Notes under the pieces: generated by a model
Seen by the model: only the letters and a program-made list of their open reading frames with translations
The model's database searches: none
What the model was told of the DNA's origin: nothing
Shown here: one piece after another, positions 39,506-63,303 of the stretch
Position numbering within the stretch: position 1 is the first letter of the stretch
Layout: every line of letters begins with the position of its first letter
Assembly: GCA_016195815.1 (NCBI GenBank)
Contig: JACPYX010000007.1
Coordinates: 124,001 to 188,000, forward strand
Direction: 5' to 3'
From: Chloroflexota bacterium
GTDB taxonomy: Bacteria > Chloroflexota > Anaerolineae > Anaerolineales > Villigracilaceae
DNA length: 64,000 nucleotides
Translations under genes and position numbers: made by a program

Positions 39506-39557
39506 ACATCCCTCCCGCAGGATTTTTTAGCGAAAAGCGAAGCTCTGTACTTCTTAT

Positions 39558-42846: not shown

Positions 42847-42874
42847 AATATTGAATCGCTAATTTATGTTATTG

Positions 42875-42899
42875 AACCTCCCTTCGGGGAGGTTTTTTT
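42875..42899 (+). terminator. Rho-independent terminator after the ferric-reductase-like gene
   Basis: AACCTCCC (42875-42882), a TTCG tetraloop, GGGAGGTT (42887-42894) and seven T (42893-42899). It ends the ApbE unit. Confidence 0.93.
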
Positions 42900-43203: not shown

Positions 43204-44343
43204 ATGGAAATACGTTTATACCTTCAAATGCTGAGGCGCGGCTGGTGGTTGATTTTATTAACCACATTGGTTGCAGTGTCGGTATCCTTAGGAATCTCTT
43301 ATCTGGTAACTCCACAATATCGGGCGACGGCGCGCTTCATCATTAGTCCAAGTGCTGTTGTGGCGAATGGGCCTGATACAGTGTTGCAGGGGTTGCAAAC
43401 TATTGACAGGCAATCTGTAATGACTACTTATTCTGAGATTATGAACAGCAATCGTATCTATACAGATGCTCTTGCTTTTCTTCAACTTAAGTCCGACGAT
43501 TTGCAGGATTACACATATAAAGCGGTAGTATTGCCCAGCTCCAGCGTTCTGGAATTAAGCGTTGTTGGTCCCGATCCTCAGCTGGCGGCGAAAATTGCAA
43601 ATGCAATAGGCTTTCAAACTATTAATTTCACCCGTCGGCTGAACCAGGTCATAGGCATTGATTTTCTTGATACTGCTGTTCCGCCAACTGAGCCTTATAG
43701 CCCTCAACCGTTGCGGGATGCCGGCCTGGCGTTTGCACTCGGTGTGATCGGGGGCGCATTCCTGGCCATCCTTCGCGAACAACTTCGACTTTCGTTGGAA
43801 GTGTTTCGGCAGCGTCTTCATCTGGATAGTGAAACGGGCGTTTATAACAATAAATATTTTACGCGCCTTGTCAGCGAAGAATTAGCCCAAAATCCGGAAG
43901 ACGTTCTTTCGGTGGGTATAGTGGAATTGAACGGCCTTCAAGACATTATTGGGACCTATCCGGTTGCCGCTTTGCAAAGAATTCTTCAGAAGGTAACCGA
44001 TTCTCTGCGAAAGGAATTGCGTGGTAATGATGTAATTGGCCGTTGGAACGATATCAGCTTTATTGTTATGCTGCCCAACACTTCTGGAATGGCGGCTAAT
44101 GGAACTTTTGAACGTATTTTCCAGGCGCTTTCAGGTTCGGTGGATGTAGGTCAATTCGGTTTGAGTGTCAATCTCGATGCTCATATCGGCGGCGCCGAAT
44201 ACGGCAATCGAATTTCAGCGCAAGAATTGTTTGAAAAAGCCAACAGCGCCCTGCAGGAAGCTCGAAGAGAAAAAAATATTCCTGTATATGTTTGGGAGAT
44301 GAAGAACCCATTTTGGTCGCAGAAGTCAACAGACGCAGAGTAG
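43204..44343 (+). CDS. Wzz-like chain-length protein fused to a degenerate GGDEF domain
   Basis: 379 residues. Two membrane helices (about 14-36 and 173-190) flank an extracytoplasmic Wzz/YveK-type domain with the PPTEPYSPQ stretch before the second helix. Residues 205-365 are GGDEF-like (DSETGVYNNKYFTRLV start; RNDVIGRWNDIS at the active loop), but the GGDEF signature is replaced by WNDIS (281-285), so diguanylate cyclase activity is unlikely. A bound-ligand or regulatory role is more likely. The fusion would link c-di-GMP-type signalling with polysaccharide length control at the membrane. GAGAGGAG lies before the ATG. Confidence 0.85.
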   Translation: MEIRLYLQMLRRGWWLILLTTLVAVSVSLGISYLVTPQYRATARFIISPSAVVANGPDTVLQGLQTIDRQSVMTTYSEIMNSNRIYTDALAFLQLKSDDLQDYTYKAVVLPSSSVLELSVVGPDPQLAAKIANAIGFQTINFTRRLNQVIGIDFLDTAVPPTEPYSPQPLRDAGLAFALGVIGGAFLAILREQLRLSLEVFRQRLHLDSETGVYNNKYFTRLVSEELAQNPEDVLSVGIVELNGLQDIIGTYPVAALQRILQKVTDSLRKELRGNDVIGRWNDISFIVMLPNTSGMAANGTFERIFQALSGSVDVGQFGLSVNLDAHIGGAEYGNRISAQELFEKANSALQEARREKNIPVYVWEMKNPFWSQKSTDAE

Positions 44344-46671: not shown

Positions 46672-46867
46672 CCACAAAACACTTGCTGTGGTCGCAGGGC
46701 GCAAACATATAATTATTGGTATTTACAATCTCGATTTCCTGGTTGTAAGTCTTCTGTTGGTTGCTAAGTGACTGCGAATTAGCGTCGTTTAGAATACTTA
46801 TGATCCAATTGCACTGAAAATATCGCATAATGTCGAAAACATAACAGCCGATTAGGAGGCAATGTCT

Positions 46868-47617
46868 ATGCAAAACGAAGCGCCGCTCGATATAATTCGC
46901 AGGTATGATCCTAATGCTTTGCGCCTTGTAGCGCAGAATCGGAATGGTTACTACGTCGCCAAGCGTATCTTGGATTCTCTAATTGCCCTTGTATTATTGT
47001 TGCTTCTTTCACCCTTACTGCTCTTGATTTCCATCTTGATCGTTATTTACTCGCCGGGCCCTGTATTTTTTACGCAAGAGCGGGTTGGGGCTAAAAGAGA
47101 GACGCATGGCAGGCATACATACTGGAAAAAAGCAACCTTTCCTTGCTATAAATTTCGTACAATGCACGTAAATGCCGACTCTTCCATTCATCAGGCCTAT
47201 GTAGCGGCATTAATTAAGAATGACGAAGAACAGATGACTGCTTTGCAAGGTGCGCCTACTCAACCTCGCAAACTGGTAAATGACTTAAGGATCATTCGTC
47301 CGGGAAAACTTCTGCGTAAATTTAGTCTGGATGAATTGCCACAATTGTGGAATGTGTTGCGGGGTGAAATGAGCCTGGTTGGACCCAGACCGGCAATTCC
47401 ATACGAAGTGGAGATGTATAAGCCCTGGCATTTGCAACGCCTGGAAGCTCAACCGGGCATCACCGGGTTGCAGCAAGTTAAAACACGTTCTGCGGCTGAT
47501 TTTGATCAACAGGTGCGATTGGATATCCAATACATCCAAAACCAGTCTCTATGGTTGGACATTAAAATCATGTTTGAAACACCTTTTGTGATCATTTCTG
47601 CAAAGGGCGCATATTAA
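46868..47617 (+). CDS. Undecaprenyl-phosphate phosphoglycosyl transferase (sugar transferase, WcaJ/WbaP type)
   Basis: About 249 residues from the ATG at 46868, which is eight bases after AGGAGG; an in-frame ATG at 46862 is only two bases from it. A reentrant hydrophobic helix at about 33-65 includes the SPGPVFFTQERVG segment. The catalytic core ends with KFSLDELPQLWNVLRGEMSLVGPRP, the signature of monotopic phosphoglycosyl transferases. It moves a sugar-1-phosphate from a UDP-sugar onto undecaprenyl phosphate and so starts the repeat unit of the polysaccharide. The donor sugar could be galactose, glucose or a diacetamido sugar made by the next genes. Confidence 0.93.
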   Translation: MQNEAPLDIIRRYDPNALRLVAQNRNGYYVAKRILDSLIALVLLLLLSPLLLLISILIVIYSPGPVFFTQERVGAKRETHGRHTYWKKATFPCYKFRTMHVNADSSIHQAYVAALIKNDEEQMTALQGAPTQPRKLVNDLRIIRPGKLLRKFSLDELPQLWNVLRGEMSLVGPRPAIPYEVEMYKPWHLQRLEAQPGITGLQQVKTRSAADFDQQVRLDIQYIQNQSLWLDIKIMFETPFVIISAKGAY

Positions 47618-47642: not shown

Positions 47643-48659
47643 ATGGATGCACTAAAAGTGGGCATTATTGGATACGGGTATTGGGGGCCTAACCTTGCCA
47701 GGAATTTTTATGAACTTCCAACATCCGACCTGGTTGCGGTTGCAGATCGCAAGGAAGATCAACTCAAGCGTGCTCAATCGAAGTATCCTCAGGTCAAATT
47801 GACCAACGATTACCAGGAATTATTTAAGATGGGGTTGGATGGCGTCGTTATATCTACTCCTCCCAAGACGCATTTTCAGATCGCCAAAGATTGTTTGTTA
47901 CACGATTTGCATGTGCTAATTGAAAAGCCCATGACGCTTAACAGCCGTGACGGAGAAGAGTTGATTGAATTGGCCGAGGCGAGAGGCTTGACGCTGATGG
48001 TAGGCCATACCTTCGAATATAACTCTGCTGTGCAGGCCTTGAAGAAATATATTGAGAGCAGGGAGTTGGGGGATCTGTATTACCTGGATACCGCTCGGCT
48101 GAATCTTGGCCTTTTTCAACGCGACTCAAACGTGCTCTGGGATCTTGCCCCACATGACATTTCTATTCTGCTGTATCTACTTGACAAAAAGCCGGTCTCG
48201 GTAAGCGCACAAGGTATGCCGTGTGTCATTCCGGGGATTTATGATGTTGCTTACCTAAACCTTATATTTCCCGACAACCTGACAGCGTATGTTCACGTAA
48301 GTTGGCTGGACCCGTGCAAGGTGCGTCGCGTTACTGTTGTTGGTAGTAAGAAGATGGCGGTTTATAATGACATGGAAAGTGAGGGGAAGATAAAATTATA
48401 CGATAAAGGCATTGATGCCCCGGATTATACCAACGGCTTTGGCGAGTTTCAGTATAACTATCGCTCTGGCGACATCACTATTCCGAATATCCACTTTGCT
48501 GAACCTTTGCGTGAAGAATGCATGCATTTTATTGACAGCATCGCGAATCACACTGAGCCTAAAAGTTCTGGTCATAGCGGATTGCGTGTGACTAAAATAC
48601 TGGAGGCCGCCCAGCGCTCCATAGCCAATGGTTCCATGCATGAGGTGATCCAATGGTAA
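47643..48659 (+). CDS. Gfo/Idh/MocA oxidoreductase, WbpB/WlbA-like
   Basis: 338 residues. An N-terminal Rossmann fold starts with VGIIGYGYWGPNLARNF; the EKPMT motif near 98 holds the conserved lysine. The gene is followed by an acetyltransferase and a DegT aminotransferase, as in WbpB-WbpD-WbpE, where a UDP-GlcNAcA 3-dehydrogenase makes a keto sugar. I infer the same step here. It ends in a seven-base overlap with the next gene. GGAGG and GGAG occur before the ATG. Other Gfo/Idh activities (myo-inositol, dTDP-sugar) are possible. Confidence 0.88.
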   Translation: MDALKVGIIGYGYWGPNLARNFYELPTSDLVAVADRKEDQLKRAQSKYPQVKLTNDYQELFKMGLDGVVISTPPKTHFQIAKDCLLHDLHVLIEKPMTLNSRDGEELIELAEARGLTLMVGHTFEYNSAVQALKKYIESRELGDLYYLDTARLNLGLFQRDSNVLWDLAPHDISILLYLLDKKPVSVSAQGMPCVIPGIYDVAYLNLIFPDNLTAYVHVSWLDPCKVRRVTVVGSKKMAVYNDMESEGKIKLYDKGIDAPDYTNGFGEFQYNYRSGDITIPNIHFAEPLREECMHFIDSIANHTEPKSSGHSGLRVTKILEAAQRSIANGSMHEVIQW

Positions 48660-49141
48660 ACCCTGAATTTGCCCGAATTGCTCCAGACGTAAGACTGGGC
48701 CGGGATGTGAAAATCTACGCTTTTGTCAACTTGTATGGCTGTGAAATCGGTGACGATAGTAAGATTGGTACTTTTGTTGAAATTCAAAAAGGCGCCTACA
48801 TTGGGAAGCGGGTAAAGGTATCAAGTCATACATTTATATGTGAAGGCGTTACCATTGAAGATGATGTTTTCATTGGGCATGGTGTAATGTTTATCAACGA
48901 TAAATATCCTCGCTCCACGACGAGTGCGGGCCAGCTTCAGACTGAGGCCGATTGGACTTGTACACCCACCTTGATTAAACGCGGGGCTTCGATTGGAAGT
49001 AATGCCACCATATTGTGCGGTGTAACTGTTGGGGAGCGCGCCATTATTGGAGCAGGTAGCGTGGTTACTCATGATGTTCCGTCCGGAGGGGTAGTTGCGG
49101 GCAATCCTGCGCGTATTCTCCGGAAACTAGAATCTGAATAG
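48653..49141 (+). CDS. Left-handed beta-helix N-acetyltransferase, WbpD/WlbB-like
   Basis: 162 residues of hexapeptide repeats (for example IGDDSKIGTFVEIQKGAYIG) with a catalytic-loop histidine in VFIGHGVMFIND, ending VTHDVPSGGVVAGNPARILRK. Homotrimeric enzymes of this type acetylate the 3-amino group of UDP-amino sugars. The trio with the oxidoreductase before and the aminotransferase after supports a UDP-2,3-diacetamido sugar pathway. GAGGTG precedes the ATG, which overlaps the upstream stop region. Confidence 0.88.
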   Translation: MVNPEFARIAPDVRLGRDVKIYAFVNLYGCEIGDDSKIGTFVEIQKGAYIGKRVKVSSHTFICEGVTIEDDVFIGHGVMFINDKYPRSTTSAGQLQTEADWTCTPTLIKRGASIGSNATILCGVTVGERAIIGAGSVVTHDVPSGGVVAGNPARILRKLESE

Positions 49142-49151
49142 GAGAATTGCA

Positions 49152-50252
49152 ATGGATATCCAGTTTGTAAACCTACACAAGCAATATAGGCCGTTAAAAG
49201 ATGAAATTCTTTCGGGAATTGAGCATGTATTGGATGGTATGCATTTGTTTCTGGGTGAAAATGTCCAGCAGCTCGAAACCGAATTTGCCCATTATTGCGG
49301 CGCGGCACATGGGATTGGTGTTAGTGATGGTACCGCCGCCCTGAACATTATTTTGCGGGCTATGGATATCGGCCCTGGCGATGAAGTAATTACCGTATCG
49401 CACACTTTCTTTGCAACTGCTGAGGCTATTATTCTAACCGGGGCGAAGCCGGTTTTTGTCGACATTGACCCGGCTACCTATTTAATGGATGTTTCTCAGG
49501 TGGAGGCGAAAATCACATCCCGCACCAAGGCCATCCTGCCGGTGCATTTGTATGGGCAGACTGTGGACATGGATCCATTGCTGGATATTGCCAAACGGCA
49601 CGGCCTGCAAGTTATCGAAGATGCATGCCAGGCGCACGGTGCTGAGTATAAGGGGCGTAAGGCGGGCACATTGGGCGATGCGGCTGGATTTAGTTTTTAC
49701 TACTCTAAAAATCTGGGCGCATACGGCGAAGGCGGATTTATTAGCACGAATAATGACGAATTGGCGGTTAAGATGCGGAAGATCCGTGACCACGGTTCAG
49801 GAGTCCGCTATCACCATGATTTGGTCGGTGTCAATGGGCGGTTGGATGAAATCCAGGCGGTGGTTTTGCGTGCAAAATTGCCGCATCTTGCCGCATGGAA
49901 TGAGAATCGCCGTGCTCATGCGCGTCAATATAACGAACTGCTGAAGGGGTCGCCGGTTGTAATACCAACCGAATGTTTCGAAAACACACCTGTCTACCAT
50001 CTCTATGTGATTAGCGCTCCGAAACGGGACGAGTTGCAGGCCTTTCTAAAAGAACGCGGTATTTCCACCGGTATCCACTATCCCATTCCCATACACCTGC
50101 AGAATGCAATGGAATTCCTTGGCTGCAAGCAAGGTGATTTGCCGGTGACAGAACATGTGGTATCTCAAATACTCTCGCTGCCAATGTATGCCGAGTTAAC
50201 GGATGATGAAATTAAATACGTTGTCGATTCAATCAAGATGTTTTACGAATAG
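49152..50252 (+). CDS. DegT/DnrJ/EryC1-type sugar aminotransferase, WbpE-like
   Basis: 366 residues, full length for the family. Pyridoxal-phosphate residues are visible: Lys186 in FYYSKNLGAYGEGG as Schiff-base lysine, Asp157 in EDACQAHGA. GVSDGTAALNIILRA at about 56-70 binds the cofactor phosphate. It would aminate the 3-keto sugar made by the Gfo/Idh enzyme. Together with the acetyltransferase this gives the WbpB/D/E order. AGGAG precedes the ATG. The substrate remains an inference. Confidence 0.92.
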   Translation: MDIQFVNLHKQYRPLKDEILSGIEHVLDGMHLFLGENVQQLETEFAHYCGAAHGIGVSDGTAALNIILRAMDIGPGDEVITVSHTFFATAEAIILTGAKPVFVDIDPATYLMDVSQVEAKITSRTKAILPVHLYGQTVDMDPLLDIAKRHGLQVIEDACQAHGAEYKGRKAGTLGDAAGFSFYYSKNLGAYGEGGFISTNNDELAVKMRKIRDHGSGVRYHHDLVGVNGRLDEIQAVVLRAKLPHLAAWNENRRAHARQYNELLKGSPVVIPTECFENTPVYHLYVISAPKRDELQAFLKERGISTGIHYPIPIHLQNAMEFLGCKQGDLPVTEHVVSQILSLPMYAELTDDEIKYVVDSIKMFYE

Positions 50253-50429
50253 AGCATCTTTGGTCTGAAAAGAATTTGGCCGATGCGGCAAGTTATATTG
50301 AAGATGTATGCTGTTATTCGTTCGGTCGTAAACAGGGTTACAGTGAACAAGTTTCTTGTTGGTGCTTGCTCGATTTAAAGTTGGCTAGTTGGATTTCGTC
50401 TGTTTATAGATATGTCGAACGGAGATTTT

Positions 50430-51944
50430 ATGTTGATCCAAAAGCTAAAACTGTATAGCAGGTCTTCTATCCATGTAACCGAATTTCTGGCGGCATGCGT
50501 GTTGGGGTTGTTGTTGGGGGCCGTGTCCATCTGGGCTTCGCCTATTGGGGTGATGTTGGTGTTTGCCGGAGGTGTCTTTGCCCTGGCGGCGACCCGAAGG
50601 CACGAGCTGCTCTTATTGGCATATTTGATATTTACATCTACCATTATTGATGATACTTACAACCCGTCCATCTCGATTGGATTTGGCACGATGTACTTAA
50701 CGGATGTTATTATATTTACCGCATTCGTTTTGGTCATCCTGCGTTCGCTTTCTGAGCCGGACTTTGAATTGATCCATACCCCTCTGGACTTTCCTTTAAT
50801 CATGTTCTGGGGCGTTACAATGTTTTCTACTTTCCTTGCCATCTTTCAGGGAAATATAACTTTGAACGCAAGCCTGGGAGCGATCCGATCCGTCAGTAGT
50901 TACCTGCTTTTTTTTGCGGTAACAAACCTGGTCAGGAAAGAGCGTCAGCTTGATCTTTTATGGAAGGGAATGTCCTTATTTGCAATATTTACTGCTTTTG
51001 GAATGATAGCGCAATACATTGCCGGAAGTTCTGTAAGAATATTACCCGGGCGCGTGGAGACTCTCAATACTGAAGGCGTGAGATTCAGCGATATCACCAG
51101 GATAATACCTCCCGGCGATGCCCTTATCTTTTTTGTGTTTATAGTCTTCACGGTCTCAATAATGTTGAAAGCTCGAAAAAGTTCGAGTATATCAACCCTG
51201 CTGTCGTTTGGACTGCTGGGACTCGGCACATTGCTAACTTATAAACGCCACTTGTTTATCGGTTTTGGCATAGCCGTCATTCTGCTCTTCGTCCTGCTCA
51301 ACTCTCGGGATAAGGTCAGGCTATTGTCCTGGGCATTTGCGTCCACCCTGATCATAGCCATTGCCGTATTATTGATTTCCATGTTCCCAGGCTCCAAGGC
51401 ATTGGAGTTTGTTACTGCATCATCGAATCGTTTCCTGTCGCTGGTAAGTTCAGAAACATATAGCAACCCAAACAGTTCGCTCCAGTGGAGATCCTTCGAA
51501 TATCAATATGCGCTCCCGCAGATTGCGTCTCATCCCCTGATTGGCATGGGCCTGGATACAAGGTATCGTCCATTCGTTCGCGGCAGAGACTATTTGCCCG
51601 GAGGTGATTTTCGCAGGTTTGTTCATAATGGCCATGTGGCAATTTTATTAAGATCTGGCCTGCTTGGTTATATGTTCTTTGCATGGCTGTCTGTGGCATT
51701 TATCTGGCGAGGATTCAAATATTGGCGGGACATCCCCGATTTAAGGGCTCAGGCGCTCGTGCTGGGATTGACGCTGACTTACATCGGCGTTTTGATCGGT
51801 ACTGTTGTCAGCCCCATCATTTTGACCGCAAATTGGACACCTGTCATAGGTATTATGTTCGGGACCAACGAAGTTATCTTCAAGAATTTTGATGTTAAGC
51901 GGTTGAGATTTGACAGGCTCAGTACAGAAACAATGGACGGGTAA
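50430..51944 (+). CDS. O-antigen polymerase/ligase-like membrane protein (Wzy/WaaL type)
   Basis: About 504 residues from the ATG at 50430, which has GGAG eight bases upstream; another ATG at 50412 lacks a site. Around eleven membrane helices and a large external loop (about 335-415) containing RWRSFEYQYALPQIASHPLIGMGLDTRYRPF, the O-antigen ligase domain layout. It polymerises or ligates undecaprenyl-linked repeat units outside the membrane. It has no clear similarity that names a polymer. A 177-base spacer with no recognised feature precedes it. The next gene begins 10 bases after its stop. Confidence 0.8.
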   Translation: MLIQKLKLYSRSSIHVTEFLAACVLGLLLGAVSIWASPIGVMLVFAGGVFALAATRRHELLLLAYLIFTSTIIDDTYNPSISIGFGTMYLTDVIIFTAFVLVILRSLSEPDFELIHTPLDFPLIMFWGVTMFSTFLAIFQGNITLNASLGAIRSVSSYLLFFAVTNLVRKERQLDLLWKGMSLFAIFTAFGMIAQYIAGSSVRILPGRVETLNTEGVRFSDITRIIPPGDALIFFVFIVFTVSIMLKARKSSSISTLLSFGLLGLGTLLTYKRHLFIGFGIAVILLFVLLNSRDKVRLLSWAFASTLIIAIAVLLISMFPGSKALEFVTASSNRFLSLVSSETYSNPNSSLQWRSFEYQYALPQIASHPLIGMGLDTRYRPFVRGRDYLPGGDFRRFVHNGHVAILLRSGLLGYMFFAWLSVAFIWRGFKYWRDIPDLRAQALVLGLTLTYIGVLIGTVVSPIILTANWTPVIGIMFGTNEVIFKNFDVKRLRFDRLSTETMDG

Positions 51945-51954
51945 AACATTTTTC

Positions 51955-53436
51955 ATGAATATTAAATTGCCAAACTCAAACGAATTAGGCCACATGGTTG
52001 CAAAAGGGATGGTATGGTCAGGCGCGCAAATTTTTGGTGGGAAACTGGTCTCTTTTATCGTTTTTGCACTGCTTTCTCGCCTGGTTAAGCCGGAAGCCTT
52101 TGGCGTTGTCGCGCTTGCCACTCTTTTTATTTCCTTTGCCCAGATTTTTCTGGATCAGGGGTTTGGCGACGCGATTGTCCAACGGGCCGATCTTGAGCAA
52201 GAACACCTGGATACTGCCTTTTGGGCAAACGTTCTTGCTGGCGGCTTGATTACGTTAATTACTTTTGTTTCCGCGCCCTTGATCGCAAATTTGTTCCGCG
52301 AACCAAGCCTGGTCTTGATTATTCCCTGGCTTTCATTGAGTTTTTTTCTCGCAGGCCTAAGCAGTACCCAGCAGGCAATTCTTCGCAGGCAACTTGCCTT
52401 TAAAGAATTGGCGGGCCGCTCATTGATTGCGGCATTCGTTGGCGGAGTTGCTGGTGTTGTATTGGCGCTGCTTGGTTTTGGCGTGTGGAGTTTGGTCGCA
52501 TTGGACCTGGTAACTGGCCTTGTTGGCGTCGTGGTTTTGTGGAATATAAGTATCTGGAGGCCGAAATTTCGGTTTTCGCCACAGCACTTCAAGCATCTTT
52601 TTTCATTTGGCTTGAATATTATCGGCATTAATTTCCTGAATTTTCTCAATCGTCATGCAGACGATCTTCTTATCGGTTATTACCTGGGCACAACCATGCT
52701 TGGGTATTACACGATTGCATACCGTATATTGACAACAATGACCGACCTGTTGACAACGGTTACCAACGCCGTGGCCCTACCGACCTTTTCGCGTCTTCAG
52801 CATGACTTCGATCGGATACGTTCCGCTTTTTATCTGGCTGTGCATTTCACAGGCCTGATCTCCATTCCGGCCTTCCTGGGAGTTGTTTTGGTTGCTCCCG
52901 AATTAATTTATACGATCTTCGGCCCACAATGGACGCTTAGTATTTCAGTTATCCAAATTCTTGCTTTTATTGGCATTTTGCATTCAATATTCTATTTCCA
53001 CAACTCCCTGGTGATCTCTGTCGGCAAACCCTCCTGGCGATTGGGTATTACTTTGCTCAATGCAGTGTCAAATGTGATTGCGTTTGCATTCGCAGTGCGA
53101 TGGGGAATCGCGGCCGTAGCGGCGGCTTATGTTATCCGTGGATACGCCCTTTCTCCCATCGAAATATGGATGGTTCGCAAATTGGCCCAGATTGATATCA
53201 AGACCTATTTTGCTCAATTTGTCAAACCTGTACTGGGCTCATTGGCAATGACAATTGTCATTTTGGGCCTGAGACTGTTGTTGGATAATACGCTTGATTT
53301 GCAGCTTCGGCTTGGGGTATACGTGTTTGCCGGTGGTGCCGCCTATTTGCTGGTAGTTTATTTCTTGGAGCCTTCCTTCTGGCCGCAGATTATTCGACTT
53401 GTTCAATCGGGGTTTGCAACGAAACCTGTTGAATAA
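51955..53436 (+). CDS. MOP-family polysaccharide flippase (Wzx-like)
   Basis: 493 residues from the ATG at 51955. Fourteen predicted helices without long loops. The start GMVWSGAQIFGGKLVSFIVFALLSRLVKPEAFGVVAL, and later FLNRHADDLLIGYYLGTTMLGYYTIAYRI, are typical of polysaccharide_synt_3 members. It flips undecaprenyl-linked repeat units to the outer face before polymerisation by the adjacent Wzy-like protein. A longer start at 51910 would overlap that gene, has TTG and no site, and is not preferred. Confidence 0.9.
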   Translation: MNIKLPNSNELGHMVAKGMVWSGAQIFGGKLVSFIVFALLSRLVKPEAFGVVALATLFISFAQIFLDQGFGDAIVQRADLEQEHLDTAFWANVLAGGLITLITFVSAPLIANLFREPSLVLIIPWLSLSFFLAGLSSTQQAILRRQLAFKELAGRSLIAAFVGGVAGVVLALLGFGVWSLVALDLVTGLVGVVVLWNISIWRPKFRFSPQHFKHLFSFGLNIIGINFLNFLNRHADDLLIGYYLGTTMLGYYTIAYRILTTMTDLLTTVTNAVALPTFSRLQHDFDRIRSAFYLAVHFTGLISIPAFLGVVLVAPELIYTIFGPQWTLSISVIQILAFIGILHSIFYFHNSLVISVGKPSWRLGITLLNAVSNVIAFAFAVRWGIAAVAAAYVIRGYALSPIEIWMVRKLAQIDIKTYFAQFVKPVLGSLAMTIVILGLRLLLDNTLDLQLRLGVYVFAGGAAYLLVVYFLEPSFWPQIIRLVQSGFATKPVE

Positions 53437-53481
53437 GCGGTGGGCTTGTTCCATGGACCGAAGCAGTTCCGCAGAAGACAG

Positions 53482-54387
53482 ATGGGAATAATGAAAACCG
53501 CTATTAATGTTGTAAATGATCATATTCGAGATGAAGACAAACACTCGTTGACCCGAGTCTTTATCGTTGGCTGTCCCCGTTCGGGCACGACGTTATTGCA
53601 AAGCCTTTTAGCCTCGAACTCGAAGATCGCGTCATTTCCCGAGACTCATTTGTTTGAGAAGCTATTTAGCCGCTGGTCGTTGCTTTCGGCGCTTGGCGTT
53701 GCATCGCGCACAGTCTGGCCGCGCTGGAAAATCATCATGGATGAGATCGGACACCCGGAATTAAGTGGGTACTTGCCGCCTCGCGCTATCTTTGTTCGTC
53801 AATATTCTGATGCTTTTGTGCGCGTTCTTGATGCAATTGCCCTGAGCCAGGGAAAGTATCTATGGATCGAAAAAACGCCAGGACATGTGCGGCATGTTGG
53901 CAGGATAGAGAAATTAGTGGATAACGCCAAATTCATACATATCATCCGCGCTGGCGTGGATAATATCGCGTCCTTATACGAGGTGGGCCAGCAGTATCCT
54001 GAAACCTGGGGAGAGTGGTACGGCACGCTTGATCAATGTATCGGACGATGGATTGAAGACGTTCGTAGAAGCCGGGAATGCTCAGGGATGAGAAATCATC
54101 GTGTCATCATGTATGAAGAATTGATTGATGACCCCAGAGAATCGTTAATTGAACTCTGTCAATTTATTGACGTGCCTTTTGAAGAAAAAATGCTGGTAGA
54201 TTATGCCAAGAGCGCATCGCAGCTTATCCTAAAACAGGAACAGTGGAAAGCCTCGGTATATGGATTGATAAAAAAGCAGGGCGAATCGAAGTTTTATAAA
54301 GTCTTCAACGAGCAACAAAGGCAGTATGTTTTAGAGTGTATACCAAAAGATCTATTGAGCATTGCATGGCCCGTGGGGAATCGGTGA
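53482..54387 (+). CDS. PAPS-dependent sulfotransferase
   Basis: About 301 residues from the ATG at 53482 (another ATG at 53491 is equally possible; the frame also extends to GTG 53440 without a site). The 5' phosphosulfate loop VGCPRSGTTLLQSLL is near the N-terminus, and a 3' phosphate-binding segment with arginine/serine follows (FIHIIRAGVDNIASLYE). It would transfer sulfate from PAPS to a hydroxyl or amino group of the polysaccharide, acting in the cytoplasm on the lipid-linked intermediate. Carbohydrate sulfation is unusual for this phylum, so it is worth noting. The next gene begins seven bases after the stop. Confidence 0.85.
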   Translation: MGIMKTAINVVNDHIRDEDKHSLTRVFIVGCPRSGTTLLQSLLASNSKIASFPETHLFEKLFSRWSLLSALGVASRTVWPRWKIIMDEIGHPELSGYLPPRAIFVRQYSDAFVRVLDAIALSQGKYLWIEKTPGHVRHVGRIEKLVDNAKFIHIIRAGVDNIASLYEVGQQYPETWGEWYGTLDQCIGRWIEDVRRSRECSGMRNHRVIMYEELIDDPRESLIELCQFIDVPFEEKMLVDYAKSASQLILKQEQWKASVYGLIKKQGESKFYKVFNEQQRQYVLECIPKDLLSIAWPVGNR

Positions 54388-54394
54388 GGCGGCA

Positions 54395-55594
54395 ATGCGG
54401 ATTTTAATGATAACCGATCATATTCCTTATCCTCCGTCATCGGGAACATCTATTCGGAATTACAACCTTTTGAGTCGGATTGCCGAAGAGCATGACGTCT
54501 GGATGGTTGCATTTGCTAAATCTGAAGAAGATCGAGACGGCGTAGCTTATATGCTGAAATTTTGCAAGGGCGTTGAGACTGTGGAAGCTCGTCGGTCCGG
54601 CGCTTTAGAGCGCCCATTAGAAGCGTTTCGATACCTGTTTCTCGGTCGTCCAATCGAGTTAAGGCATTATCAATCTCAAGAGCTGATTGAAAAGATCCAG
54701 TGCCTTACTTCGAAGATTGACTTTGATGTTATTGATATTATCGATTCGTACATGGGGCTTTACCTGGAGGCTCTGCGCCCCGAGCTGCGCCGAAGAACCG
54801 TGCTGACCTTTATTGATGTAGTATTCAGCACCTATGACCGAATTTCCCGCCTGGAGCCTGAATTGCCAAGAAAGTTGCGGACGTGGCTGTATAGTCGCAT
54901 GATGCGGCGCTGGGAACCTTATTATGTGGAACGCTTTGCTCGTTGCATTACAGTCTCTGAAGCAGACCGGCGGCTGCTCCTGTCGTCCAATCCCGGCCTG
55001 GAAATTGATGTGGTGCCAAATGGGATTGATACAAAACAATACAAACCCTTGCCCTTGTCCGGCGGCGGGCCAGCCTTGTTATTTGTAGGCAACATGGAAT
55101 ACCGGCCAAACATTGACGCTATGCTTTATTTTTGCAAAGATGTGTTTCCGCGCATCAGGGCGGTAAATCCTGGTGTCACACTATGGATAACAGGACTTAA
55201 CCCATCGCAGGAAATTCAAGATCTGGCCGACGATGGCATTTATGTAACGGGCTCCGTAGATGATGTGCGCTCTTTTTACGAACAGTGTACTGTTTGTGTC
55301 GTTCCGTTGAGGGCGGGCGGCGGGACGAGGTTGAAAATTTTGGAAGCTATGGCTTTGGGCAGGCCGGTTGTATCAACTTCCATTGGGTGTGAAGGCTTGG
55401 GCGTTGTGGATGGCGAACATCTCTTCATTGCGGACACACCGGAGCAATTTGCCGAAAAGACCTTGCGCTTGCTCGACGATCACGATTTAAGGCAGTATAT
55501 CATTGGGCAAGCCCGAAGCCTGGTAGTAAAGCACTATGACTGGGATGTCATTGCCCAACAACTTTTGAAAACCTACGTCAGGGTAGCCCAGTGA
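54395..55594 (+). CDS. Glycosyltransferase family 4-like (TIGR03087/stp1-type)
   Basis: About 399 residues from the ATG at 54395 with GAGG upstream; the frame opens further but with poor context. The N-terminus MRILMITDHIPYPPSSGTSIRNYNLLSRI fits the sugar transferase group found with exosortase loci. The C-terminal GT-B half has RAGGGTRLKILEAMALGRPVVST, the sugar-nucleotide binding glutamate motif. It adds a sugar to the growing lipid-linked chain. Overlap of the stop and the next GTG (55591) suggests translational coupling. Confidence 0.9.
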   Translation: MRILMITDHIPYPPSSGTSIRNYNLLSRIAEEHDVWMVAFAKSEEDRDGVAYMLKFCKGVETVEARRSGALERPLEAFRYLFLGRPIELRHYQSQELIEKIQCLTSKIDFDVIDIIDSYMGLYLEALRPELRRRTVLTFIDVVFSTYDRISRLEPELPRKLRTWLYSRMMRRWEPYYVERFARCITVSEADRRLLLSSNPGLEIDVVPNGIDTKQYKPLPLSGGGPALLFVGNMEYRPNIDAMLYFCKDVFPRIRAVNPGVTLWITGLNPSQEIQDLADDGIYVTGSVDDVRSFYEQCTVCVVPLRAGGGTRLKILEAMALGRPVVSTSIGCEGLGVVDGEHLFIADTPEQFAEKTLRLLDDHDLRQYIIGQARSLVVKHYDWDVIAQQLLKTYVRVAQ

Positions 55595-56766
55595 GTCAAC
55601 AATCTGATGCGCCTTTTCTTGTCTGGTTATATCCGGGATATCTGGATCGCGCCCTGGATGCCGCTACATGGCTTGACACCACTCATGAGCTTCGCAAGCT
55701 GGGGTGGAAGGTTGCCCTGATTGCAGCTGGCCCCCGCGGGTTGCGAACTATTGACGGCACCGAAGTCTATTGTATTCCCATGCCCGATATATATCTTCTT
55801 CGCCAATTAATATTTCACGTGCGATGCTACTGGTTTCTTGTAAGTAATTATTCAAGAATTGACGTCATTCTCTTTGACCAGATGTCTGCTCCATGGCTTA
55901 TGCCCATAAGTTTCGCGCGAAAATTGATGCGGAGAAAGCATCCTTTGTTGGCGATTGATATTCGTTCTCTGCACATGCCATCTCCGAAAAAGCAGGGAAT
56001 AAAAGGGTGGCTGCGGGGCGAATTTCAGGAGCTTGCTGGTAAAAAAGCCAATCACTGGGTGGATGGATATTTAACCATCACTTCCAGGATGGCAGATTTT
56101 TTCCATGTTCGGCAGGACCGTTTGTGGGGTGCATGGCCATCTGGTGTGGATTTGGAATTGTTTGAGGAGGCGCAGCATGCCCATTCCTGGCCATCCCAAA
56201 ATGCGCCAGTGCGTTTGGTGTATGTTGGTACTTTGAATGTCGAGCGTAACTTGTTGAACTTGTGCAGGGCAATTGAGCAAGCCAACGCTGAAGGAATGCC
56301 CTTTGAGTTGTGGTTGGTTGGTGAAGGCGATGAACTTCCTGAATTGGAAAAATATGCGGACAAGATGCAGGGACGGATCATGATTAAGAAGCCGGTTCCA
56401 CACCGCCAGGTTCCGAATATTTTAGCCCAGGCGCATATAGGCGTCCTTCCGTTCCCAGATGAAATAAAGTTTCAGGTGAGCAGTCCAATTAAACTTTTTG
56501 AGTATATGGCCGCAGGTATGCCAATCTTGGCTACCCGTATTGTCTGTCATACCGATGTGGTTGGCGGCGGACAATATGTTTTTTGGGCCGAAAATGCCGG
56601 CGTGTCGGGATTGTTAGGTGCGTTGCGGATGATCTGGCAGCATCGAGAGGCATTAATGGAAATGGGGACCCAGGCTGCTTTCGCGGCTCGTTCGTGGACC
56701 TGGCATGAATCTGCCTTGAAGTTAAAGGGTGCTTTGGAATATGGACTTGGAGGAAATTTATCATGA
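55591..56766 (+). CDS. Glycosyltransferase, GT-B fold (family 4-like)
   Basis: 391 residues from GTG 55591, overlapping the preceding stop. N-terminal VWLYPGYLDRALDAATWLDTTHELRKLGWKV and C-terminal SSPIKLFEYMAAGMPILATRI with the donor-binding glutamate show a GT-B retaining transferase. It is expected to act in the cytoplasm on the polyprenyl-linked chain. The sugar is not predictable. The stop overlaps the deacetylase start (ATGA). Confidence 0.88.
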   Translation: MSQQSDAPFLVWLYPGYLDRALDAATWLDTTHELRKLGWKVALIAAGPRGLRTIDGTEVYCIPMPDIYLLRQLIFHVRCYWFLVSNYSRIDVILFDQMSAPWLMPISFARKLMRRKHPLLAIDIRSLHMPSPKKQGIKGWLRGEFQELAGKKANHWVDGYLTITSRMADFFHVRQDRLWGAWPSGVDLELFEEAQHAHSWPSQNAPVRLVYVGTLNVERNLLNLCRAIEQANAEGMPFELWLVGEGDELPELEKYADKMQGRIMIKKPVPHRQVPNILAQAHIGVLPFPDEIKFQVSSPIKLFEYMAAGMPILATRIVCHTDVVGGGQYVFWAENAGVSGLLGALRMIWQHREALMEMGTQAAFAARSWTWHESALKLKGALEYGLGGNLS

Positions 56767-57746
56767 CCCCGGTTGCTGATGAAAATAAAGAACCAACGGG
56801 GTATTTCTTGTTCTCGCTTGACACTGAACTTGCCTGGGGACACTTTGACAACTTTCGCCCGGATGTGTTTTCCCCGGACGGACAGCGTGAACGTTATGCC
56901 ATACGCCGCTTGCTGGATATGCTCGATGAATTTGGCATCGTCGCGACCTGGGCTGTGGTCGGTCACTTGTTTTACGCGAAGTGTGAAAAGTGTGAGATCT
57001 GCCCGGTGTTGGAATGGAAGGGAAAATATAACAGCTATAATGATATTTATGATGCCAGCTCTCCTCTGTGGTATGGCGCTGATATTATTCGTACATTGAT
57101 TCAGAGAAGCGGCAGACATGAGATTGCTTTTCATGGATATACCCATCGAATTTTCGACGAAAATACTTTTAGCCGGGAGGACGCCAGAGTTGAAATTACG
57201 GAATGGCTGCGAGTAACCCAATCCATGCAAGTGGCGCACCCCAGGACGGTTGTTTTTCCTCGTAACAAGGTCGGGCATCTCGATGTATTCAAGGAGCATG
57301 GTTTTGTTTGCTACCGGGGGGACGAGTTATTGCCCCGGGATTATTATTCCCTGCCGCTGATCGGGAAACTCTTGAATCGTATTGACCTGATTACGCAATT
57401 CAGAACGCCGCAAATATACAATGTAGAGATCAATCGCGCGGGTTTAATTAACCTTCCGGCCTCACGAGGCCTTTTTACGATAAACCGGAAGTTTGACATG
57501 CTCCTTGATCGTTTGAATCTCCGCAATTTCCATATTCAAAGAATTATCAGAGGCGTTGAAAAGGCCGCCAAGGAAAAAAAAATAATCCATATTTACGCCC
57601 ATCCTTTCGAGTTCCGCGCTGAAAAGGATTTTGAGAAATTGCGCCGCCTGTTTGAATCTGTTGCGGACCAAATCAAAAATAACCGGCTACAGTCCGTCAG
57701 TATGGCAACGTTAGCCGAAACCGCGCTTCGTTCGTATGCATCATAA
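56763..57746 (+). CDS. Polysaccharide deacetylase-family protein
   Basis: 327 residues. NodB-like signatures: FSLDTELAW (first Asp, about 17-25), an extended RRLLDMLDEFGIVATWAVVGH, and HEIAFHGYTHRIF with the second and third metal histidines. Members remove N-acetyl groups from amino sugars in polysaccharides; cytoplasmic location fits since no signal is seen. In exosortase-linked EPS loci a similar protein is common. GGAGGAAA precedes the ATG. Confidence 0.9.
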   Translation: MTPVADENKEPTGYFLFSLDTELAWGHFDNFRPDVFSPDGQRERYAIRRLLDMLDEFGIVATWAVVGHLFYAKCEKCEICPVLEWKGKYNSYNDIYDASSPLWYGADIIRTLIQRSGRHEIAFHGYTHRIFDENTFSREDARVEITEWLRVTQSMQVAHPRTVVFPRNKVGHLDVFKEHGFVCYRGDELLPRDYYSLPLIGKLLNRIDLITQFRTPQIYNVEINRAGLINLPASRGLFTINRKFDMLLDRLNLRNFHIQRIIRGVEKAAKEKKIIHIYAHPFEFRAEKDFEKLRRLFESVADQIKNNRLQSVSMATLAETALRSYAS

Positions 57747-57788
57747 AAACCGCGTTTAACCGATTTCGATTCATTGGAGGATGCTGTT

Positions 57789-58922
57789 ATGCATGTTGCT
57801 GTGATTTTGAGTATGAAGCGCGGGATGGAACACTTTGTGTACCAGGAATTGAGCGTGATTTCAGATCAAGGAGCCAGGCTTAGTCTCTTTCCGACAAAGC
57901 GTCAGCCTGGCCTCTATAATGCCAGGCCGGACTGGAAAGTTCTAGGCTGGAATTCGAAAACAGTCCTCCTCTCCCAGTTTTTCTTTGCGCTCAGTTCTCC
58001 TGTAAAGTATTTTTCTCTGCTTTACAGGGCAATCCGTTTTAATGCAGTAGCGGATTTTTTAATTGCCTGGTATTTTGCAGGAAGGATGAAAGATGTAGAC
58101 GTGATTTACTCTATTTTTGGCGATCACAAACTATTCATCGGTTATTTTTGCAAAGCGATATTAAATCGTCCTCTGGTGGTGACACTGCATGCTTATGAGC
58201 TTTATCGGAATCCGAATCCGTTACTTTTCACCCGGGCTTTGGCAGACTGTGACCGGGTTATCACCGTAACCGAATATAATAGGGAGATTCTCCATGCTCG
58301 CTACAAGATTGATCCAGCCCAGGTTGACGTGGTTCGGGTTAATGTCAATATTGACGAATATACCCCGCTGAAAAAGTTTATTGTTCTTATCGTGGCAAAT
58401 TTCAGCGAGAGAAAAGGGCACGAAATCCTCTTTAGAGCTATAAAGGAACTTGCCAAAGACGATATCGAAGTCTGGATTGTGGGAGACGAGGGAGCTGAGG
58501 ATAACTTTATTGATGTAAGAGAGCTTGCCAAAGAGATAGGCGTTGAGAAGCAGGTGGCGTTTTTTGGCAAGTTGGGCGGGAATGCCCTCCGGGGAGTATA
58601 TCAAGCCTGTGATGTTTTCTGCCTGCCTTGTCACTTTGACCGGTGGGGCAACGCCGAGGGATTTCCAACTGTATTGGCCGAGGCAATGGCATTTGGAAAA
58701 CCGGTAATTACCACGCGTCATGTGGAAATTCCGCGAATTGTGGAAGAAGTGTTGGTGGACGAACAGGATGTTTCTGGCCTTGCAAAGGCCATCCATACCG
58801 TTTATTCTTCTGAAGAATTGCGGAAACGCCTGGGACAAAAGAATAGGAAAATAGCTGAAACGCTATTTTCGACAAAAAACGCTGAAAGAACCTTTCAAAT
58901 CATCAAAGAAACCATGCAGTAA
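57789..58922 (+). CDS. Glycosyltransferase family 4-like
   Basis: About 377 residues from the ATG at 57789, nine bases after GGAGG; the longer reading from TTG 57774 includes that site and is unlikely. The C-terminal half has SERKGHEILFRAIKEL and FPTVLAEAMAFGKPVITT, the donor-binding signature of GT4. N-terminal MHVAVILSMKRGMEHFVYQEL suits the acceptor side. It probably extends the same repeat unit. A 91-base spacer separates it from the asparagine synthase-like gene. Confidence 0.9.
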   Translation: MHVAVILSMKRGMEHFVYQELSVISDQGARLSLFPTKRQPGLYNARPDWKVLGWNSKTVLLSQFFFALSSPVKYFSLLYRAIRFNAVADFLIAWYFAGRMKDVDVIYSIFGDHKLFIGYFCKAILNRPLVVTLHAYELYRNPNPLLFTRALADCDRVITVTEYNREILHARYKIDPAQVDVVRVNVNIDEYTPLKKFIVLIVANFSERKGHEILFRAIKELAKDDIEVWIVGDEGAEDNFIDVRELAKEIGVEKQVAFFGKLGGNALRGVYQACDVFCLPCHFDRWGNAEGFPTVLAEAMAFGKPVITTRHVEIPRIVEEVLVDEQDVSGLAKAIHTVYSSEELRKRLGQKNRKIAETLFSTKNAERTFQIIKETMQ

Positions 58923-59013
58923 TAAGTTGTCCTCCAGAGAGAATGACTGTAAAATGATGAGCTGACAAGAAACTTGATCAATGTAGAATTTTACGAGAAC
59001 GGAGTTTTGGGAT

Positions 59014-60921
59014 ATGTGTGGAATTTGTGGAATTTTTTCTTATCAGAATATGGTCCCTGTGGATCAGGATCTTATATCTCGTATGCTGGTCGCTATTCAG
59101 CATCGGGGGCCGGATGATGATGGTGTTCATATTGATCGGGGTCTCGCAATAGGAATGCGGCGTCTTAGTATTATTGATTTGGAAGGCGGGCATCAGCCCA
59201 TGTCCAACGAGGATGGCAGTATTTGGATCGTATTCAATGGAGAAATTTATAACTTTCCTGAACTGCGTTCGGACTTGATGGCTAAAGGCCATGTCTTTCG
59301 TACCCGCTCAGATACAGAGACCATCATCCATGCTTATGAAGAATGGGGAATGGAGAGTTTCTCCCGTCTTAATGGCATGTTCGGTTTGGCATTGTGGGAT
59401 CGCCATAACCGGGAATTAATTCTTGCTCGCGATCCTTTCGGCATAAAACCCCTTTATTATGCTGATCGTGAGGGATGCCTGACCTTCGGCTCTGAGATTA
59501 AAGCGATTTTGGCTGGCCCCGAAATTCCTCGCCAAGTGGACCTAGAAGCGCTGGACCAGTTTTTAGCTTTCTCTTTTGTGCCTTCGCCGCATACTCTGTT
59601 TAAGGGAATAAAAAAAATCCCGCCCGGCTACGCAATGCGCGTTACGTCGAGCGGCGTAAAACTTCACAGGTTTTATCAGCCGGAAATTGTCGCAAAAGAT
59701 ATGGGCAGCGCCGAATGGCTTGATGCATTGCAATATCAAATTGAGGCGGCGGTGAAACGTCAAATGATATCAGACGTCCCTGTGGGCGTCATGTTAAGCG
59801 GTGGAATTGATTCGGCTACCGTAGCCATGCTCATGCGCAAGTTCTCAAGACAGGCTCTCCACTCGTTTACAGTCGGTTTCGCTGGCGATTTCGATCTTAA
59901 TGAACTGGCTGCGGCCAGGCGCAGCGCAGAATTGATCGGCAGCACGCATCATGAGGTCGTCATTTCTTCGGAAGAGTTTGTTGAATTCCTGCCAAAATCC
60001 ATCTGGCATCTGGAAGAACCGGTTGCCAACCCGTCTTCGCTTCCCTTTTACTGGGTTTGCAAACTTGCCCGGGAATATGTCAAGGTTGTTTTAACGGGCC
60101 AGGGCGCGGATGAGCCGTTTGCCGGATATGGCCGCCATTTAGGGGAATATTACGGAGAATGGTACCGAAGAATTCCATCGGCGGTGCGCAGGCGTTTGAT
60201 TACCCCCTTCGTGGACTCGTTGCCTCGAAACGAACAACTAAAGCGGGCCGTTCATTCATTGGATATTCACGACCCTCTTTCACGGTTGACACAAATTTAT
60301 TCGATCTTTGACGCCGATCTTCGACAGCATCTTTACAAGCCCGAGATGCGATTTGAATCTCAGGCAAGTTTGGCGCATTCTATAGAAAAATTGCATGGCG
60401 ATATCGCGCACCTTGATGGCCTAAACCAGATGACATATATTGACGCACGTTTTTCCCTTGCAGATAATTTGTTGATGTATGGCGATAAAATGTCCATGGC
60501 GGTCTCTTTGGAAGCTCGTGTCCCATTCCTGGACTTGAACCTGATGGCGTTCGTGGAAAGTATGCCGGCCCGTTATAAAATACGCGGCCAGACACAAAAA
60601 TATCTTCTCAAAAAGGCTGTCGCCAAGTGGCTTCCCCCGGAGATTATTAAACGAAAAAAGATTGGCTTTACCACGCCAATTGATCAGTGGTTTAGCAGTG
60701 AATTGCGAAATTATGTCTCCGACAAACTTTTAGGAAGCGGCTCTGCCTGTAATTTGTATTTCAACCCGGCAACAATAGAGAAGATGATTGCAGATCACGA
60801 AAATAAGCGCCACGATTATAAACGCCACCTATTTAATTTGCTAACGTTTGAGATGTGGCATGAGCAATTTGTTACTTCGACATCTTCGAGCTTGTTGCCT
60901 ACTCTTCAGGTAGCCCTGTAG
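59014..60921 (+). CDS. asnB: Asparagine synthase-like amidotransferase (glutamine-hydrolysing)
   Basis: 635 residues. The nucleophilic Cys2 follows Met1 (MCGICGIFSY), with the class II glutaminase residues through about 200. The synthetase domain has the PP-loop SGGIDSATV near 271-279. It would use glutamine ammonia to amidate an aspartate or, in EPS loci, a carboxyl sugar. Homologues near exosortase loci (amidotransferase 1) are known. A CGGAG site is weakly placed before the ATG. Asparagine synthesis remains possible. Confidence 0.92.
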   Translation: MCGICGIFSYQNMVPVDQDLISRMLVAIQHRGPDDDGVHIDRGLAIGMRRLSIIDLEGGHQPMSNEDGSIWIVFNGEIYNFPELRSDLMAKGHVFRTRSDTETIIHAYEEWGMESFSRLNGMFGLALWDRHNRELILARDPFGIKPLYYADREGCLTFGSEIKAILAGPEIPRQVDLEALDQFLAFSFVPSPHTLFKGIKKIPPGYAMRVTSSGVKLHRFYQPEIVAKDMGSAEWLDALQYQIEAAVKRQMISDVPVGVMLSGGIDSATVAMLMRKFSRQALHSFTVGFAGDFDLNELAAARRSAELIGSTHHEVVISSEEFVEFLPKSIWHLEEPVANPSSLPFYWVCKLAREYVKVVLTGQGADEPFAGYGRHLGEYYGEWYRRIPSAVRRRLITPFVDSLPRNEQLKRAVHSLDIHDPLSRLTQIYSIFDADLRQHLYKPEMRFESQASLAHSIEKLHGDIAHLDGLNQMTYIDARFSLADNLLMYGDKMSMAVSLEARVPFLDLNLMAFVESMPARYKIRGQTQKYLLKKAVAKWLPPEIIKRKKIGFTTPIDQWFSSELRNYVSDKLLGSGSACNLYFNPATIEKMIADHENKRHDYKRHLFNLLTFEMWHEQFVTSTSSSLLPTLQVAL

Positions 60922-61001
60922 GCTTCTTGGTTAATCTGTGATTCGCAAAATAAAAAATATCCAGCGACCTTGTCCCCTTATGTCGCTTTGTGAGGATGGT
61001 T

Positions 61002-62222: not shown

Positions 62223-62292
62223 GACAACGTGATTTATCGTTCAGTTTTGATGATTCTGATTAAGGCCTTGTTTGCGAAAGTAAGTGTTACTA

Positions 62293-63303
62293 ATGGATAT
62301 TAGAATAGTTCGAAGTCTATCGAAGGATGTTTGGCATCGTTTTGTCGAGCAACACCCCGCTGGCAATATCTTTCATACCCCTGAAATGTTTGAAGTGTTT
62401 TCTCGCGCCCTGGGCCATAAGCCGCAATTCTGGGCTGCCATTGACCACGAAAACATACTTGCACTTTTTCTTCCTGTTGAGATAAGCCTTGCTGGCGGGC
62501 TGTTGCGGCCGTTAACAACGAGAGCAGTTGTATACGGCAGTATTCTTTGTTCTTGTAATCAAAATATTGATATTGTGTTGAACGAATTGTTTCTGAACTA
62601 TAAGCACGTAATAAAGCGTCGGATATTGTTTACCGAGATGCGTAATTTGACTGATGGGGGTGATCTTCAACCCATTTTTCAATCAGCCGGGTTTAAATTT
62701 GAGGGGCATAATAATTATATTGTTGACTTGGCGTTACCAGAAGAAAAGGTATGGAATAATATTCACAAGTCAGCCCGTAAAAAGATATTGCAGGCGCAAA
62801 GGAGGAGTTTGCTATCCATTCGGGAAATTGACGATAAATTGATGTTGCCCGCATGGTATAGCCTGATGCAAAAATCTTTTTTGTGGAATCATACCCCGCT
62901 CCCGGATATTTCACTCTTTGAAGCTGCGTTTGATGTTTTGTATCCCAAGCATATGATTCAGTTCTTGATTGGCAGTTTAAATGATCGTCATGTTGCGGCT
63001 TCCGTTGCATTGTTATATAAAGACAAGATTTATGGCTGGTATCGCAGTTTTGATCGCGCTTATAGCGACTGCATGCCAAACGATCAAATGGTATGGCATG
63101 TTTTTAAGTGGGGCACAGAAAATGGTTTTAGCTCATTTGATTTCGGTGGGGCAGGGCGCCCGGATGAAAAATATGGTCCTCGCAACTTTAAAGCTAAATT
63201 TGGCGGCGCGCTGGTAAATTATGGCCGTAATACTTTTATTCATGCGCCTTTGCAATTAAAGCTGAGCACTTTGGGTTACAGACTTTTTAGGAGAATTCTT
63301 TAG
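62293..63303 (+). CDS. FemAB-like acyltransferase/GNAT-fold protein, copy 1
   Basis: About 336 residues from the ATG at 62293. Two GNAT-like halves with HPAGNIFHTPEMFEVFSRALG near 20-40, the MFEVF signature of FemAB/CelD-like proteins, and FDFGGAGRPDEKYGPRNFKAKFGG near 280-303. Known members add amino acids or acyl groups to peptidoglycan or to polysaccharide sugars, and a related group accompanies exosortase loci. The substrate here is unknown. The next gene, starting directly after its stop (63304), is a clear paralogue. Confidence 0.85.
   Translation: MDIRIVRSLSKDVWHRFVEQHPAGNIFHTPEMFEVFSRALGHKPQFWAAIDHENILALFLPVEISLAGGLLRPLTTRAVVYGSILCSCNQNIDIVLNELFLNYKHVIKRRILFTEMRNLTDGGDLQPIFQSAGFKFEGHNNYIVDLALPEEKVWNNIHKSARKKILQAQRRSLLSIREIDDKLMLPAWYSLMQKSFLWNHTPLPDISLFEAAFDVLYPKHMIQFLIGSLNDRHVAASVALLYKDKIYGWYRSFDRAYSDCMPNDQMVWHVFKWGTENGFSSFDFGGAGRPDEKYGPRNFKAKFGGALVNYGRNTFIHAPLQLKLSTLGYRLFRRIL

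Follow-up and report, generated by a model that had tools for sequence, protein, structure and literature searches.

What does a GGDEF domain that has lost its signature motif do on a polysaccharide co-polymerase? The question is raised by one gene in the window, the whole 64,000-nucleotide stretch of Chloroflexota DNA analysed here, in which a Wzz domain is joined to such a GGDEF domain ahead of a large polysaccharide cluster. We consider it probable that the product is a Wzx/Wzy co-polymerase with a degenerate-GGDEF receptor for c-di-GMP, by which polymer synthesis or length would be switched or tuned. This candidate receptor reading rests on an inhibitory site that was kept while the active site drifted, on a C-terminal fold like that of PleD, on an N-terminal half like that of Wzc, and on the gene context.

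A co-polymerase with a GGDEF fold at its C terminus

The fusion lies in a single open reading frame (Table 1) with both Pfam matches above their curated cut-offs, Wzz at residues 6-87 (42 bits, cut-off 25.5) and GGDEF (PF00990) at residues 206-357 (59.5 bits, cut-off 23.8). This agrees with an earlier sequence-only reading of the gene, which had proposed the joining of the two domains. The Pfam scan found no GAF domain and no kinase or AAA match in the protein, and among the 22 NCBIfam models listed for it the generic GGDEF domain model was the only one above its cut-off. Structure prediction, which the sequence-only reading had suggested as a check, gave an AlphaFold2 model with a mean pLDDT of 90.3 and both a co-polymerase-like half and a GGDEF fold. 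The model begins with one helix, followed by an extracytoplasmic alpha/beta domain; a long helix (residues 169-206) then leads without a break into the GGDEF fold. Two membrane helices are predicted on the basis of the model and of the Wzz relatives.

Table 1. Positions in the window of the fusion gene, its parts and the neighbouring features
Feature	Positions	Strand	Basis
Terminator-like hairpin closing the upstream gene	42874..42895	+	Consensus match only; 9 sites in the region against 5.9 in shuffles
Wzz/PCP-GGDEF fusion CDS, 379 aa	43204..44343	+	ORF list and Pfam
Co-polymerase half, aa 1-206	43204..43821	+	AlphaFold2 models; closest solved fold Wzc
First membrane helix, ~aa 14-34
Extracytoplasmic domain, aa 38-167
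Second helix, aa 169-206
GGDEF-fold domain, catalytically degenerate, aa 206-357	43819..44274	+	Pfam; fold comparison
R273-G-N-D276, primary I-site RxxD	44020..44031	+	Alignment; RxxD kept in 108/114 fusions
NDISF, aa 282-286, at the position of the lost GGDEF motif	44047..44061	+	HMMER alignments to solved GGDEF domains
R304, equivalent of the third I-site arginine (PleD R390, DgcR R237)	44113..44115	+	Spacing and alignment
BcsB-like protein, 764 aa	44377..46671	+	Pfam PF03170, 160 bits
Initiating sugar-phosphate transferase (Bac_transf)	46862..47617	+	Pfam
GFO/IDH oxidoreductase, hexapeptide transferase and DegT aminotransferase (three sugar-modification genes)	47643..50252	+	Pfam
Wzy-type polymerase / O-antigen ligase family (Wzy_C)	50412..51944	+	Pfam
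Wzx-type flippase (Polysacc_synt_3)	51910..53436	+	Pfam
Sulfotransferase, four GT4-type glycosyltransferases, weak deacetylase match, asparagine synthase, FemAB-like	53440..63303	+	Pfam
Second FemAB-like gene	from 63304, past the window end	+	Genome sequence

When the N-terminal half was modelled alone, its closest solved fold was Wzc (VIA Z 14.9 over 182 residues, rmsd 3.3), with further matches to KpsE (Z ~12.5) and to full-length WzzB and WzzE (Z ~10). The protein has the Wzz profile and the two helices flanking an extracytoplasmic alpha/beta domain that define the Wzz/PCP group (Pfam and model). The C-terminal tyrosine kinase with Walker motifs and tyrosine tail that defines PCP-2a is absent, and a GGDEF domain is found there instead; from the model, this domain is predicted to occupy the position of the Wzc kinase. 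In an alignment of 53 relatives (A1, restricted to the family-level search and made before the I-site exceptions described below turned up), domain matches at E <= 0.01 were GGDEF in 53 of 53, Wzz in 51 and GNVR in 33. The last of these domains occurs in Wzc-type proteins.

Pfam Wzz was matched twice more in the same genome, by a frame of 207 aa and, on another contig, by a 645-aa protein whose Wzz-GNVR-AAA architecture is kinase-like. Separately, the searches returned Wzz-only relatives of ~226-243 aa (L221-L225, L228, L136 and L137), which resemble the N-terminal half and end without the GGDEF part.

The layout is that of Wzc and other PCP-2a proteins, in which a first transmembrane helix, an extracytoplasmic domain and a second transmembrane helix are followed by a cytoplasmic regulatory domain. 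In Wzc, however, that domain is a tyrosine kinase with a Tyr-rich tail, whose phosphorylation has been proposed to cycle the assembly of the octamer. A further parallel is offered by EcpK/EpsV and HfsB/HfsA, described as PCP-2 systems thought to run without tyrosine phosphorylation, although their regulator is a pseudokinase and not a GGDEF fold. These systems suggest a structural stand-in, that is, a GGDEF fold acting as a ligand-free module for oligomerisation or docking in place of the kinase ring, as proposed for EcpK and HfsB. PCP-2 proteins with catalytically dead partners have been proposed as scaffolds (EcpK/EpsV), and the catalytic motif of the fusion is gone. The I-site, considered below, speaks against such a module.

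The active site was lost early in a broad family of fusions

The GGDEF domain of the model superimposed on PleD bound to c-di-GMP with a VIA Z of ~24 (164-170 residues, rmsd 2.2-2.7). In HMMER alignments, RWNDISFIVMLP of the fusion fell over R-x-GGDEF-xxxx-P of solved cyclases with no gap in the region. The sequence-only reading had placed WNDIS at the motif; the loss of the motif was confirmed, and the register moved by one, since in the gap-free alignments W281 is the residue preceding the motif and NDISF its true counterpart, with the final F retained. Further active-site positions are changed, including the metal-binding Asp, which is E241 in the fusion, and neither the GG(D/E)EF motif nor the metal and guanine residues of an active diguanylate cyclase are present. 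Judged from these alignments, loss of cyclase activity is well supported, as the sequence-only reading had it.

To place this protein among its relatives, 114 distinct full-length Wzz-GGDEF fusions were gathered, that of the window included, nearly all from Chloroflexota. No two of them share the same last 320 residues, and each covers the model from position <=20 to position >=320; truncated matches and those with Wzz alone had been removed before the count. In the window's own family, 67 of 150 sampled genomes matched at E <= 1e-20, in most cases along almost the entire protein, and the other 83 had no match at that threshold. The class search returned 101 of 396 genomes at E <= 1e-20, many of them with GGDEF-only or Wzz-only matches, and the phylum search 27 of 400 at E <= 1e-27, some of them Wzz-only; both are samples in which ~four candidates were scored per genome within one phylum. 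A genome_contigs search from one N-terminal peptide pattern contributed 71 loci. A separate plasmid search gave 20 records, one of which covered 80% of the query. Carriers include Herpetosiphon, Levilinea, Longilinea, Pelolinea and a Leptolinea plasmid. The fusion had been thought unusual, which these numbers contradict: it belongs to a broad Chloroflexota family.

No intact GGDEF motif was identified in any of the 114 fusions. Related fusions with an intact signature, by which the sequence-only reading would have judged this copy simply decayed, were not found in the family, class and phylum samples, in genome_contigs or in plasmids. Several candidates for such a fusion were rejected. Twelve candidate loci were fetched (L229-L240); those with an intact GGDEF matched the family profile only from ~residue 172 and carried no Wzz part. 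One of the twelve, L239, has a DETSF motif that is not intact and keeps REYD; it is response-regulator-like, without Wzz, and stayed outside the tree through the motif filter. A Salinivibrio plasmid match, annotated as a diguanylate cyclase, aligned from residue 161 and keeps GGEEF.

Conservation at the former active site is low throughout the family. Across the 114 sequences, columns 241, 243, 249, 250 and 282-285 ranked between 214 and 327 of 379, and Asp occupied position 241 in 2 sequences. This bears on the idea that the divergent site is still enzymatic or senses GTP. The GGDEF fold is intact, and some cyclases with altered motifs are reported to be active, for example one with AGDEF; with motif columns poorly conserved apart from the final F, and the metal Asp so rare, we regard continued activity or GTP sensing as very unlikely.

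A phylogenetic tree was built from 55 representatives of the family (<62% identity) and 22 intact-motif domains. The smaller set was used because near-identical rows may remain among the 114. A single branch separated the family from the intact domains (support 98/96, with the bootstrap not fully settled), and the same branch was recovered with an SH-aLRT of 94, by a quick method, when the active-site and I-site columns were removed. This separation, together with the absence of any intact motif in 114 fusions, indicates that the catalytic site was lost early and, as far as the sample shows, once. A functionless remnant of an active cyclase would be expected to show the loss of its catalytic motif first, as is the case here, yet the loss is old, the family stands apart by its own branch, the fusions of alignment A1, 22-70% identical to the window protein, have frames open from end to end, and strongly conserved residues remain. 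Decay is therefore hardly tenable as an explanation.

Several relatives deserve separate mention. A divergent subfamily (L069-L073; 22-29% identity) has REED, REVD or REDD at the I-site and lies in clusters with sulfotransferase genes; in the four of its loci long enough to judge, the next gene is neither wzy nor bcsB. The fusions on contigs titled Nitrosomonas (L143) and Planctomycetota (L175) share 57% and 43% identity with the window protein; these contigs are probably misbinned Chloroflexota DNA. A 212-kb Leptolinea plasmid (AP024711.1; L193 / L210) carries a copy of the fusion and its cluster, so the system can be plasmid-borne.

The I-site is retained

The RxxD motif is the inhibitory site (I-site) where cyclases bind c-di-GMP. 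In the window fusion an intact RxxD sits five residues upstream of the lost GGDEF motif, and the motif recurs in 52 of the 55 representatives. Within the 152-column GGDEF domain, D276 and R273 ranked first and second in conservation (weighted, 111 sequences), or first and third when the 114 sequences were left unweighted, and in alignment A1 they were the only invariant columns of the domain. Of the 22 distinct intact-motif cyclase domains compared, 21 have RxxD too, so the argument rests on its retention amid active-site drift and not on its presence. On the sequences compared, inheritance explains why RxxD is there, but not why it was kept as the active site changed. Early loss of catalysis with an I-site long held is the signature expected of a receptor.

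The third I-site residue is present as well. The PleD I-site is described as R359, D362 and R390; that of DgcR includes R206 and D209, and its R237, which corresponds to R390, lies too far from the ligand for contact in the reported complex. R304 of the fusion lies 28 residues after D276, the spacing of both D362-R390 and D209-R237, and aligns to DgcR R237 (HMMER). Of the 114 fusions, 91 have R and 7 have K in this column (98/114 R or K). At the secondary I-site, inspection of residues ~191-204 and 228-233 in the 114 fusions revealed no clear partner arginine at the DgcR or YdaK position: no Arg is conserved within 228-233, and R or K occupies the column of R204 in 86 of 114 and that of R202 in 61. 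In sequence, then, the domain combines a lost active site with RxxD and a third arginine, in the manner of the degenerate-GGDEF receptors PelD, YdaK and BcsE. The sequence-only reading had left the choice between a sensor and a protein contact; a sensor is favoured here by the conserved RxxD I-site, the decisive clue, which it had overlooked.

Six of the 114 fusions depart from RxxD, with PGRD in one clade of four, WGTD in one sequence and RKET in another; in these, binding may be lost or of a different kind. The PGRD clade (L123-L126) provides natural candidates for lost or altered c-di-GMP binding. The persistence of these few members is what a ligand-free module standing in for the kinase ring would allow. 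Such a module, however, leaves unexplained both the top conservation of the I-site Asp and Arg and the placing of R304 at I-site spacing, and we consider it unlikely.

The fusion belongs to a Wzx/Wzy cluster with a BcsB-like neighbour

The fusion gene is followed by genes for a Wzx/Wzy-type pathway (Table 1) in a same-strand cluster that ends ~320 bases beyond the window end, after which genes on the other strand follow. A gap of 357 bp precedes it. The stretch from 42800 to the start codon contains no sigma-70-like promoter match (the scanned region as a whole has 4, shuffled sequences 7.3), and there was no Rfam riboswitch match at gathering score within 40000-64000. The gene had been described as the head of the locus. 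This fits the hairpin and the gap seen here, but not many of the relatives, in which sugar- or glycosyltransferase genes lie upstream. Further upstream in the window, 33943-40211 encodes an MTTB-type methyltransferase, a B12-binding protein, a RACo-type activator, a homocysteine S-methyltransferase and an M20 peptidase; this is a corrinoid methyl-transfer set and looks unrelated to the fusion.

The downstream neighbourhood was compared in 107 loci with at least 1.4 kb of sequence after the fusion, of which 66 were at least 12 kb long. The next gene was taken as a frame starting between 600 bases before and 500 after the fusion stop, with wzy checked first; by this rule, 33 of the 66 loci had a wzy-like gene next, 29 a bcsB-like gene and 4 neither kind. 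The retrieved DNA of all 66 contained one or more of wzy, wzx, bcsB and the initiating transferase. Where 8 kb or more of downstream sequence was available, 40 of 47 loci had a BcsB-like gene; among all 107 the number was 58. Herpetosiphon aurantiacus and Longilinea arvoryzae share the order glycosyltransferase, fusion, wzy, wzx. At the window locus the BcsB-like gene is the sole Pfam BcsB match in the genome, and no BcsA-type synthase was found among the cluster genes scanned. With a BcsB-like gene in a Wzx/Wzy cluster, a possible role of BcsB outside cellulose systems looks worth study.

A candidate c-di-GMP receptor for Wzx/Wzy polymerisation

The source genome encodes seven GGDEF domains whose motif is intact or nearly so (GGEEF, GGDEF, GGEEI, GGDEL and SGDEF) and two PilZ domains, one of them inside the window; c-di-GMP is therefore very probably made and sensed in this organism. 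RxxD is no proof of the identity of a ligand, on which sequence alone bears here, and another nucleotide or a protein partner might in principle be bound at the I-site surface. With cyclase and PilZ domains in the genome, and with degenerate GGDEF receptors of polysaccharide systems described as binding c-di-GMP, this is extremely improbable.

Under the c-di-GMP receptor reading, c-di-GMP from the other cyclases of the cell would bind the retained I-site (R273, D276 and probably R304) and alter the packing of the cytoplasmic domains. By analogy, this change would pass along the continuous second helix and alter both the assembly of the co-polymerase ring and its action on Wzy, perhaps also on the BcsB-like neighbour, so that polymer synthesis and length are switched or tuned. 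The sign of the effect would be activation, if PelD and YdaK are a guide.

Each half of the fusion is already known separately, as are degenerate GGDEF receptors in polysaccharide systems. PelD, YdaK, BcsE and Alg44 were likened to the fusion by their published descriptions. PelD of Pseudomonas and Bacillus cereus is likewise described as membrane-bound and part of a polysaccharide system, and its degenerate GGDEF domain as binding c-di-GMP by RxxD and a third arginine; for B. cereus PelD, a Kd of ~0.1 uM is reported, with binding undetected in RxxD mutants. It differs in having four transmembrane helices and a GAF domain and in serving the Pel system, whereas the fusion has Wzz, two membrane-type helices (model) and no GAF domain, and belongs to a Wzx/Wzy system. 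YdaK of Bacillus subtilis is described as a transmembrane protein needed for exopolysaccharide, with a degenerate motif (SDERI) and an intact RxxD five residues upstream, as in the fusion; R202A or D205A is reported to abolish exopolysaccharide. In contrast to the fusion it has four predicted transmembrane helices, and the description consulted mentions no co-polymerase fusion. BcsE of cellulose systems also serves a polysaccharide machine with a degenerate GGDEF-like domain, which is reported to bind c-di-GMP by its I-site, but it is a soluble accessory protein without Wzz. The nearest precedent is Alg44, described as an alginate co-polymerase with its own c-di-GMP receptor domain; that domain is PilZ, in an Alg8/Alg44 synthase system, and not a GGDEF fold on Wzz.

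A literature search, with subscription papers outside its scope, found no description of a Wzz or PCP protein fused to a degenerate-GGDEF receptor. Direct c-di-GMP switches are described, in the accounts consulted, for synthase-dependent or Pel-type systems (cellulose, Pel, and alginate via the Alg44 PilZ domain), and Wzx/Wzy co-polymerases as run by tyrosine phosphorylation or pseudokinases. We put forward tentatively, as possible rather than probable, that the fusions form a separate PCP-2 class in which binding and release of c-di-GMP, and not tyrosine phosphorylation, would drive the ring cycle and thereby polymer output and chain length. Wzx/Wzy pathways would in this way gain a direct allosteric c-di-GMP switch and be coupled, in the absence of a cellulose synthase, to a periplasmic partner resembling BcsB. 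If the family does carry an I-site receptor where Wzc has its kinase, direct second-messenger control of chain length would become testable within a single protein, and these genes, which are widespread in Anaerolineae, would be given a function; the only annotated record examined labels the fusion 'hypothetical protein'.

Two further observations concern other c-di-GMP-related genes. The PilZ domain of the window lies in a small gene at ~33549-33890 on the - strand (Pfam PilZ, 36 bits), ~9 kb from the fusion, and is likely a second c-di-GMP receptor. On contigs C11 and C12, the source genome also encodes two response-regulator-type GGDEF proteins (L105 and L106) with the motifs GGDNF and GSADF, further degenerate GGDEF proteins that are not fused to Wzz.
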